The notes below the pieces were generated by a model. It saw nothing but the letters and a program-made list of their open reading frames with translations. It did not search any database and was not told the origin of the DNA. This document shows positions 29,239 to 41,007 of a DNA stretch of 41,828 bases, in pieces (positions within the stretch are counted from its first letter, which is position 1; the number at the start of each line of letters is the position of its first letter). The stretch covers positions 1-41,828 of the IMG/VR virus record IMGVR_UViG_3300031999_000064. One strand, written 5' to 3'. This DNA is from a virus. The translations under genes and the position numbers were made by a program.

Positions 29239-29339
29239 GTGAAGAAGGAATCCCCTGCCTTGTCCCGTGCTGGCCGATCTGTTGCGACGATTGCCCATTT
29301 GGTGAACTTGGAGACAAACCAGAAGAGGTGCCGGCATGA
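29235..29339 (+). CDS. Tiny Cys-rich protein before methyltransferase
   Basis: The 34-residue protein has five cysteines in 14 residues (C7, C12, C16, C17, C20; ending in CCDDC), and an acidic end. It would bind zinc or an iron-sulphur cluster. ATGA overlaps on both sides support translation. Function is unknown. Confidence 0.5.
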   Translation: MSEEGIPCLVPCWPICCDDCPFGELGDKPEEVPA

Positions 29340-30730
29340 TCGAAGCGAAGCCAGTTGTCGTTGATATGTTCTGCGGCAGCGGAGGTGAGAGCCAGGGAAT
29401 CAACTGGTCAGCAGAGAAAGCCGGGGTTTCAATCGAAATGTTCGCCATCAATCATTGGGAACGAGCCATTGAAACACACCGGGCCAACTTTCCCTATGCG
29501 GAGCATATCTGCCGGGATGTACGGGATATCGACCCATCTTCACTGGTGCCGGGCCGGAAGATTGCCTTACTGTGGGCCAGTCCTGCATGTACTCATTTCT
29601 CCGTTGCCCGTGGCGGCAAGCCGATGGACGACCAGAGTAGGGTAACTCCGTTCACCATCCTTGACTGGCTCGACAAGCTGACTATTGATCGGGTCATCAT
29701 CGAGAATGTGCCGGAGTTCCGTTCGTGGGGGCCGCTTGATGAACGGACGCACCGCCCAGTACCTGAGGCCAAGGGCGATACCTTTAACGCCTTTATCACC
29801 ATGATTCGGGGACTAGGGTACGCTGTGGATTGGAATGTCCTCAATGCCGCAGACTATGGTGCACCAACTACCCGCCGAAGATTGTTTATTCAGGCAGTAA
29901 GGACTGGAAGCGAGAAGACCATACTCTGGCCGAAGGTGACGCACCAACAAGGAACCGGGAATGTTTCCACCAGTGGAATGCCATTGTGGGTTTCTGCCCG
30001 AAAGATCATCGACTGGTCACTCCCTACGCAAATTATCGACGAAAGATCCAAACCACTCGCCGCGAATACCATGAAGCGCATCTTCCGGGGGATCGAGAAA
30101 TATTGGGGAGAGTACGCCACGCCGTTCCTGGTGCGCTACAACGGCGGAGTGAACAGGGTTCACTCGATAGACGATCCCTTACCCGTTTTGGATACATCGA
30201 ACCGCTACGGACTTGTACAGCCACTTGTGATGCAACTTGGGCAGACATCCAGCAAGGGCAGGACGAGAAGCATCGACGAGCCATTAGCGACAGTCGTCAC
30301 TAAAGAAGAAGCCTGCCTGATCGAGCCACTATTCATCCCTCAGCACTCATGCGGCGAAGTGCGCCCGACGACAGGGCCACTCTCTACCATAGCGACAAAA
30401 GGAGCAATCGGTCTTGTGGAGCCCCTGATAATGGAGTATTACGGACAAGGTGTGTGTCACCCGGTATCAAAACCGGTACCAGTCATCACGACAAAGGATC
30501 GGTTTGCATTGATCTCTCCTGAAAATATCTCTTCAAAAAACGTCCGCCTTGGTTTCAGGATGCTGAAGCCGCACGAACTGGCGGCGGCGCAGAGTTTTCC
30601 ACGGGAATATATCTTCACCGGAAATCGTGCCGATGTCGTCAAGCAGATTGGGAATTCCGTATGCCCGAAAATAGCCGAGGCATTGACCTCAGACTACATG
30701 AGAGAACTAGTATCAATTTCAGGAGTGTGA
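29336..30730 (+). CDS. DNA (cytosine-5) methyltransferase
   Basis: The protein has 464 residues with the family motifs in order: I (DMFCGSGG, 10-17), IV with catalytic Cys85 in WASPACTHFS (a SPAC variant of the usual PPC), VI (ENV, 123-125), VIII (TRRRLF, about 179-184), and X (GNSVCPKIAEAL, about 439). The target-recognition part (215-400) holds four similar units of 32-36 residues starting PFLV, PLVM, PLFI and PLIM, each with a D/K-P-L/V-P-V-x-T-K-like end. No restriction gene is next to it, so it probably protects viral DNA from host restriction. Confidence 0.9.
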   Translation: MIEAKPVVVDMFCGSGGESQGINWSAEKAGVSIEMFAINHWERAIETHRANFPYAEHICRDVRDIDPSSLVPGRKIALLWASPACTHFSVARGGKPMDDQSRVTPFTILDWLDKLTIDRVIIENVPEFRSWGPLDERTHRPVPEAKGDTFNAFITMIRGLGYAVDWNVLNAADYGAPTTRRRLFIQAVRTGSEKTILWPKVTHQQGTGNVSTSGMPLWVSARKIIDWSLPTQIIDERSKPLAANTMKRIFRGIEKYWGEYATPFLVRYNGGVNRVHSIDDPLPVLDTSNRYGLVQPLVMQLGQTSSKGRTRSIDEPLATVVTKEEACLIEPLFIPQHSCGEVRPTTGPLSTIATKGAIGLVEPLIMEYYGQGVCHPVSKPVPVITTKDRFALISPENISSKNVRLGFRMLKPHELAAAQSFPREYIFTGNRADVVKQIGNSVCPKIAEALTSDYMRELVSISGV

Positions 30731-35110: not shown

Positions 35111-35563
35111 ATGCCCCGGACATGTTCGATCTGTGCCAACAAAGCGTGCCATGAGATAGATACCGCACTCGTCAGTGGAACCGTGTCAATAAGGGACATA
35201 GCGAGCCAATACCGTGTCGGACGGACAGCCTTATCGCGCCACGTGAAAGGCGGGCATGTTGCAGCAAAGATCCAACTGGCAAAAAAGGCACACGAGGCCG
35301 TCGCAGGGGAGAACCTCCTCCAGCGGATAGAGAGGAGATATAAACGCCTTCAGGAGATGGCAGACAAGCATAAACAATGGGGAGAACTTGAAAAGGAATT
35401 GAAGGTCTACCACGAGGAAGCGGGTTTTATGAAGATAGAGGGTATGGCAACCGGGGCCTTCAAGGAGAAGATTGAACACTCTGGCAACATGAACATCACC
35501 GGACAGATGAGCGACGAGGAGGTGGAGACCCGTGCAAATGCAATCCTCTCGAAGCGTAAGTGA
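35111..35563 (+). CDS. terS: Terminase small subunit-like protein
   Basis: The 150-residue protein begins with CSICANKACHEIDTALVSG, a short Cys motif, then a helix-turn-helix (SIRDIASQYRVGRTALSRHV) and a long coiled coil (RIERRYKRLQEMADKHKQWG), the general layout of small terminase rings. It is directly before the large terminase, with 32 bases of overlap that include the large subunit's ribosome site. It should select viral DNA for packaging. Confidence 0.75.
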   Translation: MPRTCSICANKACHEIDTALVSGTVSIRDIASQYRVGRTALSRHVKGGHVAAKIQLAKKAHEAVAGENLLQRIERRYKRLQEMADKHKQWGELEKELKVYHEEAGFMKIEGMATGAFKEKIEHSGNMNITGQMSDEEVETRANAILSKRK

Positions 35564-37565
35564 TCTTGAAATCCTCCGGGAATATGCGACCCGGTGGACG
35601 TTCCTTGCGCATCCCGGGCAGATCCCACCTACTGATCGGGCATGGTTCTGTTACCTCATGCGATCTGGGCGTGGGGGCGGCAAGACCCGGGCCGGTGCAG
35701 AGTGGATCCTGAAAAGAGTCCGGCAGGGATACAAACATATCGCACTCATCGGACAGACGGCAGCGGACATTAGGGATACAATGGTCGAACTGGGTCCCTC
35801 CAGCATCATGAAGATCGCCCGACCGGAAGAAAGACCGGTTTATGAACCCTCAAAACGGCGGCTTACATTCCCCAACGGTGCAGTTGCCACTACCTTCACC
35901 GGGGAGGAACCCGATCAGCTGAGAGGACCCGCCCATGACACGGTCTGGATCGACGAACTCGCCAAGTTCAAGTATCCCGAGGAGACGTGGGACAACATGG
36001 AGATGGGTCTCCGGCTCGGCAACAACCCCCAGATCTTCTGCACCACAACACCCCGCCCGATCCCGATCATCAAGCGCCTGGTTAAGGACCCAACCACGAT
36101 CGATGTCCGGTTCTCCACTTCTCAAAATGCCGAGAACCTCTCCCCGATATTCCTGAAGCGCATCCAGGAGCGGTATGCGGGCACCCGGTTGGGGCGGCAG
36201 GAGCTGGAGGGGGAGGTCCTTGAGGATAACCCCAATGCACTCTGGCAACGTGATGTAATCGAGAACCTCCGGGTCCGTGAGGCCCCGCTGTTGATCCGGG
36301 TGGTCGAGGGTATCGATCCGGCAGTCACCGGGAACGAGACCTCCGATGAAACAGGCATTATTATCGGGGGTATGGCAGCGAATGGGCATGGGTACATCCT
36401 CGAGGACGCATCCCTGCAGGCGTCCCCCGCGGAATGGGCCAGGGCAGCCGTCCGGGTATTCCATTCCTGGAAAGCGGATCGGGTTATCGGAGAGGTCAAT
36501 AATGGCGGCGATCTCGTAGAGGTCAATATCCGCACCGTTGACCGGAACATCCCTTTCACCGCGGTTCATGCTTCCCGCGGGAAGGTGATCCGGGCGGAAC
36601 CCGTGGCGGCTCTGTATGAGCAGGGCCGGATCCACCATGTCGGCACATTCCCGGAACTTGAGGACCAGATGTGTCTTTCTGGGGATACTTTAATTTCAAC
36701 TGAACAAGGTCGTCGTGAAATCTCAACCATAAAAAAAGGAGAGAAGGTATGGACAAGAAACGGATTAAAATCCGTTATTTGGTCTGGAATAACTGGCACC
36801 GACGAGGTTGTCTATGATATCAAAACATCTGATAATGTTCACTTACTCGCCACGGGGGGACATCTTATATATACCAAAAACAGAGGGTTCATCAGGACTG
36901 TAAATTTACAATCCGGAGATGAACTCAAAACATGGAAAAATATGGCCCCAGAACATATTGGGGCGGGCACTATTGGGCAGTGGATAACAAAGGGTATTAC
37001 CGTAACAAAAGGGCTGGTGGATTATTACACCGGATTATCTGGGAACAAACCAACGGTCCCATTCCCGTGGATATTCTCATCCACCACAAAGATGGTAATC
37101 CCCTCAATAACAATCTCGGTAATCTCGAACCGGTTACCGTCTCAAAACACAAGCTCACTCACCCCGGTGGTTTCGCAATATGGTCACCCGAACGACACAG
37201 CATCAAACAAAAAGGGATGTGGAGGGACCGGAAACCTCAAACCAAAACCTGTGTGTCTTGCGGATCAACTTTTGAATCTACCGGAATGCGGGCGAAGTTC
37301 TGCAACAAAAAATGCAGACGCAAGTACTATTATCAACATCAGAAAACACCCGCATAAAATTCCCGTTTTTAATTTAAAGATTGAATCGCAACCAGAATTT
37401 TACGCCAACGGTATCCTAGTGCATAATTGCGACTGGGTGCCCGGCGGCAAGAGTCCGGATCGCATGGATGCCCTGGTCTGGATGATCTGGGAATTATTCG
37501 GGCTTGGATTGAAGGAAGAACAGCAGCAGCGAGTGTATGTGATCCACGATGACACAGAAATTTGA
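35532..37565 (+). CDS. terL: Terminase large subunit interrupted by an intein
   Basis: The frame has 677 codons: N-extein 1-380, intein 381-632, C-extein 633-677. The ATPase shows Walker A (SGRGGGKT, 45-52) and Walker B (VWIDE, 138-142). The nuclease shows Asp262 (EGIDPAVTG), an acidic strand (EVNNGGD, 321-327) and the final SPDRMDALVW after the intein. Spliced length would be 425 residues, normal for the family. GTG 35532 was chosen because GGAGGT stands eight bases before it; ATG 35538 is possible. The protein packages and cuts DNA. The intein sits between DQM and CDW, a conserved place near the nuclease active site. Confidence 0.9.
   Translation: MQMQSSRSVSDLEILREYATRWTFLAHPGQIPPTDRAWFCYLMRSGRGGGKTRAGAEWILKRVRQGYKHIALIGQTAADIRDTMVELGPSSIMKIARPEERPVYEPSKRRLTFPNGAVATTFTGEEPDQLRGPAHDTVWIDELAKFKYPEETWDNMEMGLRLGNNPQIFCTTTPRPIPIIKRLVKDPTTIDVRFSTSQNAENLSPIFLKRIQERYAGTRLGRQELEGEVLEDNPNALWQRDVIENLRVREAPLLIRVVEGIDPAVTGNETSDETGIIIGGMAANGHGYILEDASLQASPAEWARAAVRVFHSWKADRVIGEVNNGGDLVEVNIRTVDRNIPFTAVHASRGKVIRAEPVAALYEQGRIHHVGTFPELEDQMCLSGDTLISTEQGRREISTIKKGEKVWTRNGLKSVIWSGITGTDEVVYDIKTSDNVHLLATGGHLIYTKNRGFIRTVNLQSGDELKTWKNMAPEHIGAGTIGQWITKGITVTKGLVDYYTGLSGNKPTVPFPWIFSSTTKMVIPSITISVISNRLPSQNTSSLTPVVSQYGHPNDTASNKKGCGGTGNLKPKPVCLADQLLNLPECGRSSATKNADASTIINIRKHPHKIPVFNLKIESQPEFYANGILVHNCDWVPGGKSPDRMDALVWMIWELFGLGLKEEQQQRVYVIHDDTEI
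36672..37427 (+). mobile_element. Intein in the terminase (252 residues)
   Basis: Intein marks: first residue Cys381 with CLSGDTLI (block A), LLATGGHLIY with T-x-x-H (block B, intein residues 61-64), VFNLKI then EFYANGILVHN (blocks F and G) and Cys633 as the next residue. The exteins fit without gap: LEDQM then CDWVPGG. Residues 87-229 of this frame look unlike protein (Ser/Thr/Pro-rich) because that DNA codes for an HNH protein in another frame. The true splicing parts are therefore only about 86 and 25 residues, slightly shorter than usual minimal inteins, so activity is likely but unproven. Confidence 0.88.
36932..37357 (+). CDS. HNH homing endonuclease nested out of frame in the intein
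   Basis: The protein has 141 residues and its own ATG and TAA. It has the phage HNH pattern: TYWGGHYWAVDNKGYYRNKR, LLHRIIWEQTNGPIP, then HHKDGNPLNNNLGNLEPVTV with a late His (HKLTH), and a C-terminal zinc group (CVSCGSTF; FCNKKCRRKYY). It lies in the -1 frame relative to the terminase/intein reading. GGAG (36915-36918) lies 13 bases before the ATG. It starts just after intein block B and stops at the beginning of block F, thus filling the linker. It probably drives homing of the intein. Confidence 0.87.
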   Translation: MEKYGPRTYWGGHYWAVDNKGYYRNKRAGGLLHRIIWEQTNGPIPVDILIHHKDGNPLNNNLGNLEPVTVSKHKLTHPGGFAIWSPERHSIKQKGMWRDRKPQTKTCVSCGSTFESTGMRAKFCNKKCRRKYYYQHQKTPA

Positions 37566-39448: not shown

Positions 39449-39589
39449 ATGAAAGTTCTCATCGGTGAAACATGCTGTCCTGTAATCTGTGCAGCAACTG
39501 GGTTAAAAATAAGATGTACCGGGAGAAAGTGCCCCGCATATGATAATTCACAGCGGCTATGTGATATTGGTGAGAGATCAGATAGATGA
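39449..39589 (+). CDS. Tiny Cys-rich protein between portal and Mu F genes
   Basis: The 46-residue protein (MKVLIGETCCPVICAATG; CTGRKCPAYDNS; C near 38) has six cysteines. GGAG lies seven bases before its ATG and its stop overlaps the next ATG, so it is very likely translated. The zinc or disulphide role is unknown. It is the only Cys-rich micro-protein inside the late head genes. Confidence 0.6.
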   Translation: MKVLIGETCCPVICAATGLKIRCTGRKCPAYDNSQRLCDIGERSDR

Positions 39590-41007
39590 CCCTCTCTGAA
39601 GCCGCCGCCCAACTCTCCCGTGCCGCAATCGCCATGAAAAAGCGCCGGGAAAAGGATGCGCTCGCCCGGAAGCACCGGAAGAAGATCGCCGCATTTTTCC
39701 GCAGGCAGAAGGGACTGGTACTGGAAGAGATGGGTAAACAGAAGTATCTCTTTTCCGAGTCGTTCCAAAGGCTGACAGAAGAGACGATTATTGATTTCAC
39801 GGTGCAGAACTGGGATCGGATCTGGGAGGATATCTCTAACCTCAGTACCAAGGATCTCCAGACCCTGATTGCCTCAGCAGAAGCGGACGGCCTGATAAAC
39901 GGTGCGTTGCAGCTCAAAAATTCTTTACCGTTCGACGCAAAGACCAATTTCAATCTCGCAAATCCCCGCGCAGTGCAATGGTTTTCTGACAATGGCGGCA
40001 GCCTGCAATACATCAAAAATATTCAGGATACCACGCGGGATCAACTTCAGGTTATTATTACCAAGGCCATCGACGAGGGCAAATCCTATACCCAGACCGC
40101 AAAAGAAATTAGCGATAAGTTCGATGGGTTCAGCCGTGATCGCGCCCAACTGATCGCCGTCTACGAGACCGGGCAGGCATATGAGGAGGGCAACATGCTC
40201 TTCTCGCAATCCCTGAAAGATGACGGTATTGTGATGGAAAAAAAGTGGATGACCAGCCATGATGATAGGGTCAGGCCGGAGCACCAAGCCAACGAGGCCG
40301 AGGGCTGGATCCCCATCGACCAGTACCACGGAACGGGCGATTATATTCCACCATCCGACCCGGGGTGCCGTTGCTATGAGATTTACGAACAAGCCACCAC
40401 TCAGGAAGTGGTGTTCATTCCCCCAGTTCCACGGCAACCCATCAGGGAAGAGATTAAACCAACTCCTGAAATTATCATCGGTGAACAAGGTCTACCGGGG
40501 ATTAAAGGGGAGAAGGGCGATCCGGGTGAAAACATTAAGGGTGATAAAGGGGATTCCGGGGAATCCATAAAAGGTGACAAGGGAGACAAAGGCGACCCCG
40601 GAGAAAGTATTGTTGGACCGACAGGTCCACCCGGCAAATCTATCAAAGGCGATAAAGGGGAAAAAGGAGATACCGGCAAATCTATCAAAGGCGATCCCGG
40701 CAAGAAAGGAGACGAGGGCCCACCCGGCCAATATCCCGATCCGTTGAACCTCGATGATCTCAGTAACGTTTCAATTACCAGTCCTATCGAGAATCAGGTC
40801 TTACAATACGAACTGGGAAGATGGACGAATAAGGATCTTAAACCGACAGTAAACGTCATCGGAGGAGGCGGTGGGAGTGGCCCAAAAGGGGATAAAGGAG
40901 ATCCGGGCCCACCGTTAAGTCAACCGCCCGCAGAGCATTACAAAGTGACCAACCTGTATGTCAATGCACAGACAGGTAAACTTGAAGTGGAATATGAAAT
41001 CCCATGA
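39586..41007 (+). CDS. Mu F/SPP1 gp7-like head protein fused to collagen-like fibre
   Basis: The protein has 473 residues. The Mu F-like part (about 125-263) ends with the family motif KKWMTSHDDRVRPEHQ, then YIPPSDPGCRCYEI. A Pro-rich hinge (275-298) leads to collagen-like Gly-x-y repeats at about 302-382 and a short second run at 432-443. Between them is LDDLSNVSITSP with QVLQYELGRW, a fibre-attachment pattern, and the end (TGKLEVEYEIP) resembles the end of the next gene's product. The fusion would place trimeric collagen rods on a minor head protein, perhaps at the portal vertex. That reading is inferred from the domains. Confidence 0.85.
   Translation: MTLSEAAAQLSRAAIAMKKRREKDALARKHRKKIAAFFRRQKGLVLEEMGKQKYLFSESFQRLTEETIIDFTVQNWDRIWEDISNLSTKDLQTLIASAEADGLINGALQLKNSLPFDAKTNFNLANPRAVQWFSDNGGSLQYIKNIQDTTRDQLQVIITKAIDEGKSYTQTAKEISDKFDGFSRDRAQLIAVYETGQAYEEGNMLFSQSLKDDGIVMEKKWMTSHDDRVRPEHQANEAEGWIPIDQYHGTGDYIPPSDPGCRCYEIYEQATTQEVVFIPPVPRQPIREEIKPTPEIIIGEQGLPGIKGEKGDPGENIKGDKGDSGESIKGDKGDKGDPGESIVGPTGPPGKSIKGDKGEKGDTGKSIKGDPGKKGDEGPPGQYPDPLNLDDLSNVSITSPIENQVLQYELGRWTNKDLKPTVNVIGGGGGSGPKGDKGDPGPPLSQPPAEHYKVTNLYVNAQTGKLEVEYEIP

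Follow-up and report, generated by a model that had tools for sequence, protein, structure and literature searches.

Canonical endonuclease inteins carry a LAGLIDADG or HNH domain that is read in frame with the intein itself. A different organisation was reportedly described by Dassa et al. in 2009 for fractured genes, in which the intein is split and a homing gene lies between its two halves. A further case is the ShiLan insertion (PMC11855218), where an HNH gene lies out of frame within a phage methylase. Its authors could find no splicing domain and expect the host protein to retain the insert; Applejack is likewise cited for such an arrangement (PMC12613952). Here we describe a viral locus that has features in common with all of these systems. 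It lies in IMG/VR record IMGVR_UViG_3300031999_000064, of which the whole stretch analysed (41,828 nucleotides) is referred to as the window, and consists of a terminase large subunit gene, an intein in the frame of this gene, and an HNH gene that is nested in the intein in another frame (Table 1).

The terminase intein and its nested HNH gene

The host frame is free of stops from 35511 to 37562, i.e. straight through the intein, and matches the Pfam families Terminase_6N (3e-24) and Terminase_6C (9e-11) as well as Intein_splicing and Hint_2. The first-pass annotation had stated that the intein is read through in the terminase frame and that this frame is kept open over the 426 bp of the HNH gene, and the terminase reading frame indeed runs across both without interruption. 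The intein starts with Cys1, possesses the T-x-x-H motif of block B and terminates in H251-N252 followed by Cys, which provides the C-terminal Asn-Cys; C1, T61, H64 and N252 are invariant across 31 aligned inteins. A HINT fold is predicted, and an empty allele, a further hallmark of inteins, is present in a relative (L067). Protein splicing of the window intein is inferred from these sequence features.

Table 1. Positions of the terminase, intein and HNH features in the window
Feature	Position	Strand	Remarks
Terminase large subunit gene with in-frame intein	35532..37565	+	677 aa; exteins 425 aa
Intein, 252 aa	36672..37427	+	Between ELEDQM and CDWVPG; Intein_splicing/Hint_2
N-terminal splicing region of the intein, residues 1-86, blocks A and B	36672..36929	+	
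Block B, T61-x-x-H64	36852..36863	+	
Shine-Dalgarno-like GGAGATGA	36915..36922	+	9 nt before the HNH ATG; overlaps intein Gly-Asp codons
HNH endonuclease gene, 141 aa	36932..37357	+	-1 frame of terminase/intein; ATG to TAA
Intein linker, host-frame reading, residues 97-214	36960..37313	+	Predicted disordered
HNH_3 domain, HNH residues 32-73 (IHHKDGNPLNNN..NL)	37025..37150	+	
Cys4 zinc-finger-like region of the HNH	37250..37315	+	C107, C110, C124, C128, invariant
C-terminal splicing region, blocks F and G (IPVFNLKIESQPEFYANGILVHN)	37359..37427	+	TIGR01443 intein_Cterm
+1 Cys of the C-extein	37428..37430	+	Splicing nucleophile; present already in the empty allele L067

The nested gene spans intein residues 87 to 229, and its -1 frame matches HNH_3 (Pfam, 5e-15) and an HNH profile of PHROG (5e-20). 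No endonuclease family match was found in the host-frame reading of the linker, the HNH lying in the -1 frame. The gene is complete with its own ATG and TAA, precisely as it had been delimited at first, and its frame is closed just upstream by an in-frame TGA (36920-36922). The ribosome site that had been claimed for it is real but modest, and another IMG/VR contig with the same layout (L001) carries AAGGAGATGTGA at this place. Among 29 nested HNH genes, H51/H52, N60/N64 and the four Cys are invariant, and the window gene possesses both the HNH_3 motif and the Cys4 zinc finger of an HNH homing endonuclease. Site-specific cleavage of the empty allele and homing are its probable activities, the homing reading resting on the empty site and on the scattered distribution of the insert.

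The AlphaFold model of the intein, obtained with 31 nested inteins, reaches a pLDDT above 90 at residues 1-90 and 215-252 (about 95 or more in the C-terminal splicing region) and falls below 50 at residues 97-214. A confident HINT fold with a disordered linker in between is thus predicted, which essentially bears out the earlier remark that residues 87-229 do not resemble an intein. The best PDB matches of the intein model are inteins, headed by gp41-1 (TM 0.86 by target length), a split intein of the fractured-gene set. The HNH model has a mean pLDDT of 87, and its nearest solved structure is I-HmuI, with a probability of 0.91 but an E-value of only 0.04.

Two other genes of the window may be recorded here. 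A head-morphogenesis-like protein (39586-41007) has a tail of collagen-like GXY repeats (GPPGKSIKGDKGEKGD), and a DNA methyltransferase (29336-30730) possesses about 190 residues beyond the aligned span of the phrog_363 profile, which suggests an internal insertion; no HNH of the nested family was found in this methyltransferase.

Occurrence of the layout among relatives

The terminase site of the window is likewise occupied in L001, by a 252-aa intein that is 41% identical and harbours, at the same offset, an HNH gene whose product is 71% identical. The same site is empty in L067, where ELEDQM is directly followed by CNWVPG, while in the window the intein stands between ELEDQM and CDWVPG. The L067 terminase is 91% identical to that of the window at the protein level (best segment) and the DNA flanks are 83-84% identical; no clear co-conversion tract was seen in the terminase flanks of the two. 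Related terminases with and without the insert, for which a search had been proposed as a check, are thus both at hand. A sequencing or frame error as the cause of the window layout was considered and is excluded, because L001 repeats intein, site and offset, as does the family as a whole. The contig of the empty allele L067 additionally contains a free-standing partial HNH relative (L036, 3911-4207). A more distant terminase (L070/L071, 3830-6847) holds two inteins, each with its own out-of-frame HNH, at the positions LYEQ/C and SPDRMDA/C, which flank the insertion site of the window.

Profile models of the two splicing regions, N-terminal and C-terminal, served to sort the HNH relatives from viral contigs and named phages, and cases with less than 90% HNH identity were counted as independent. 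At 90 loci the intein is uninterrupted and encloses the HNH gene in a different frame (86 with the common offset, 4 with the other), the remaining relatives comprising 3 fractured cases, 1 in-frame case (L045) and 40 without a detected intein. There are 66 independent nested cases, 64 in the -1 offset and 2 in the other, to which the first intein of L070/L071 has to be added; as all relatives were collected by the similarity of their HNH, these counts are not frequencies for all inteins. The arrangement, initially regarded as an isolated oddity, is therefore recurrent and not rare within this HNH family (66 independent loci).

Terminases predominate among the hosts and represent several families (Terminase_6, Terminase_3 and GpA). 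One host is a DegT/DnrJ/EryC1 aminotransferase (L015, 3072-6239) with two inteins, one of which contains an out-of-frame HNH and the other a LAGLIDADG that is read in frame. Among named phages the layout occurs in Tetrasphaera phage TJE1 (L149), Acinetobacter phage Highwayman (L147) and a Rhodobacteraceae phage (L152). In the records of all three, this place is annotated as terminase without any HNH, the terL of TJE1 and that of Highwayman being filed as single genes. These phages surfaced with the nested HNHs of L034 and L003 as queries; the window HNH as query gave no match among 50,697 phage records. A scan of genome contigs yielded only three relatives, of which one is nested (L155, a Parabacteroides MAG). 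The layout is widespread in viruses and seems to be little described. At one locus (L185, 159-1045) the intein changes frame, its N half being in the HNH frame and its C half in the one normally used by the host, and the indel in its linker may be either real or a read error.

Constraint on the two frames and synthesis of the HNH protein

When the window HNH was recoded with synonymous codons, the host frame stayed open in only 1-3% of the trials, and for 31 nested genes the average was 0.8% (extein codon usage) or 2.3% (own usage). Across the 64 independent HNH genes of the common offset not a single host-frame stop was observed, against 182.3 expected, while the unused frame of the same genes, which serves as a built-in control, contains 1181 stops against 1158 expected. 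In free-standing relatives the same frame has 11 stops against 10.7 expected (BP10, L148), 7 against 6.7 (L197) and 7 against 6.0 (L160); the Vibrio fractured case has 13 against about 10. As stops are absent from the nested genes and occur about as expected in the free-standing ones, we conclude that selection keeps the host frame open for read-through of the intein. Synonymous recoding also leads one to expect about 5 stops in the common frame but 17 in the other, so that avoidance of stops largely explains the strong frame preference of the nested HNH genes.

Of the two overlapping products it is the HNH that is conserved. Between the window and L001 the HNH frame is 68% identical and the linker 27%, with 37, 30 and 93 differences at the first, second and third positions of the HNH codons (93 of 160 at the third). 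Similarly, L027 and L033 share 84% in the HNH and 65% in the linker, and other pairs agree. Apart from the avoidance of stops, the linker residues drift. In L012/L030/L208, where the HNH frame possibly extends over the N-terminal blocks, the situation is reversed, with conservation in the host frame and fewer changes at third positions; constraint on the HNH is in these loci inseparable from host-frame conservation over block B. The initial proposal that a separate homing-type HNH gene resides in a mini-intein, its DNA doubling as a dispensable linker, gains support from the complete splicing domain that is predicted to fold, from the disordered and drifting linker, and from the conserved HNH frame.

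In 59 of the 66 HNH frames an ATG precedes the conserved core, in most cases with a stop within about 12 codons upstream of it. No ATG, GTG or TTG start was found in the upstream region searched for the nested HNHs of L028, L155 and L212. Shine-Dalgarno-like matches of at least 4 bases accompany 64% of the chosen nested starts, compared with 30% of same-frame control ATGs (p=3e-6), and are absent at 36% of the chosen starts. The type found in the window is not general, since only 9 of 59 genes have a GGAGAT/GGTGA/GGAGG-type sequence near the start. Canonical slippery heptamers near the HNH start show no phase bias (30/25/32). The upstream ATGs, the Shine-Dalgarno enrichment and the lack of a slippery-site bias favour internal initiation over frameshifting as the way in which the HNH is probably made. 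At the other end of the gene, the HNH stop is built from the Tyr/Phe-Asn/Asp codons of block F in 12 of 31 genes, and in these the intein motif therefore supplies the stop.

Proposed working, alternatives and relation to known systems

The locus very probably represents a cis-splicing mini-intein whose homing endonuclease is a separate HNH gene, located in the -1 frame across the linker. The whole terminase frame would be translated, whereupon the HINT domain would remove the 252 residues and join ELEDQM to CDWVPG. Other ribosomes would initiate at the ATG at 36932 behind GGAGATGA, a step for which there is some sequence support, and would produce a free HNH. During co-infection this protein would cleave intein-less terminase alleles such as that of L067, and repair would copy the element in. 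The comparison of relatives shows that selection maintains both the HNH protein and the stop-free host frame, with the linker left to drift.

Alternatively, programmed -1 ribosomal frameshifting within the intein could yield a terminase-IntN-HNH fusion, in which case the HNH would not be a separate cistron. The position of 64 of the 66 independent nested genes in the -1 frame, the commonest direction of frameshifting, would suit this explanation, but the same preference is expected from stop avoidance anyway. Moreover, slippery heptamers lack a phase bias, the nested gene of two independent loci lies in the other frame, and most HNH frames have a stop a few codons before the ATG together with Shine-Dalgarno enrichment there, so we regard frameshifting as unlikely. 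It is next to impossible that sequencing or assembly errors displaced an ordinary in-frame HNH intein: the one in-frame relative (L045, with a DNA-polymerase-like host) and the indel that L185 may hold would agree with such errors, whereas the recurrence of one offset in 64 independent loci, including TJE1 and Highwayman, the HNH's own start and stop, and the selection against stops in the host frame all disagree.

The HNH could also be a dead relic in a fixed intein, the open host frame being a leftover, as might be suspected from phage BL3 (L154), which keeps only an HNH remnant. Such decay is very unlikely given that the HNH residues are better conserved than those of the linker and most changes fall on third positions, that H51/H52, N60/N64 and the four Cys are invariant in 29 nested genes, and that empty and occupied sites are mixed. 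Finally, the predominance of terminases among the hosts might hint at a packaging accessory of the terminase instead of a homing enzyme, HNH proteins, such as those beside terminase genes, being known as packaging partners (Kala et al. 2014, cited in PMC12613952). We give this role very little credence, as the same HNH family occurs in the intein of a DegT aminotransferase (L015), close relatives such as L067 have a terminase without the insert, and the HNH position corresponds exactly to the usual insertion point of intein endonucleases.

Besides its nested state, this HNH family is found free-standing and between the halves of split inteins. A free HNH relative is encoded beside the terminase of BP10 (L148), and that of Poludnitsa (L153) is also free-standing. 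In the Vibrio phages 1.245.O and 1.238 (L150/L151, 191-3919) the terminase is split and the HNH lies between the intein halves, and in Brochothrix phage BL3 (L154, 1900-2600) the terminase intein is broken by stops and only the zinc-finger end of the HNH is left between the halves; all three fractured relatives do carry host-frame stops. In the records of the two Vibrio phages the HNH is unannotated, and a downstream 'hedgehog/hint domain protein' looks like IntC plus C-extein. The HNH tree mixes the three states and is poorly resolved, its well-supported branches forcing at least 3 label changes; nesting and fracture may interconvert.

The chances are even, in our estimation, that 'nested-cistron inteins' form a distinct class of composite mobile elements, in which free HNH genes have repeatedly entered mini-inteins in an overlapping frame or have long co-evolved with them, and in which selection holds the host frame open because the host protein, usually a terminase, is essential. 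If so, loss of this openness would lead to fractured genes and split inteins, and the class would bridge free-standing homing genes, cis-splicing inteins and natural split inteins, with a testable route to the last of these. The layout indicates that the homing enzyme of an intein need not be a fused endonuclease domain and can instead be encoded by a separate gene that overlaps the intein. It also provides a large natural dual-coding set, with conservation in one frame and no more than freedom from stops in the other. The HNH is hidden by standard annotation (e.g. in the terL of TJE1 and Highwayman). A study by Gosselin et al. from 2025 reportedly deals, by its title, with actinobacteriophage inteins of 'non-canonical architecture' and may describe related layouts. 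A full-text literature search covering few subscription papers turned up no description of an HNH nested out of frame in an intein that splices in cis, and we provisionally regard this combination as new.

Like that of the ShiLan insertion, the HNH of the window lies out of frame within a host gene that stays open, and its disjunct distribution suggests homing. Unlike in ShiLan, the intein around this HNH is complete and possesses every catalytic block, and the insert should therefore be removed from the host protein. With fractured genes the locus shares an independent homing gene at the endonuclease position of the intein; in those genes, however, stops part IntN from IntC (14 of them in the Vibrio case), whereas the window frame is kept open, so that splicing can take place in cis. 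Free-standing phage HNH homing genes (I-HmuI/HNH_3 type, PHROG 15471) display the same HNH and zinc-finger architecture, but the window gene is nested and constrained to leave the host frame stop-free. The combination of a HINT domain with an endonuclease at the same insertion point, finally, is that of canonical endonuclease inteins, from which the window differs in that its endonuclease is encoded in another frame and stands outside the intein polypeptide; the aminotransferase of L015 has inteins of both kinds.
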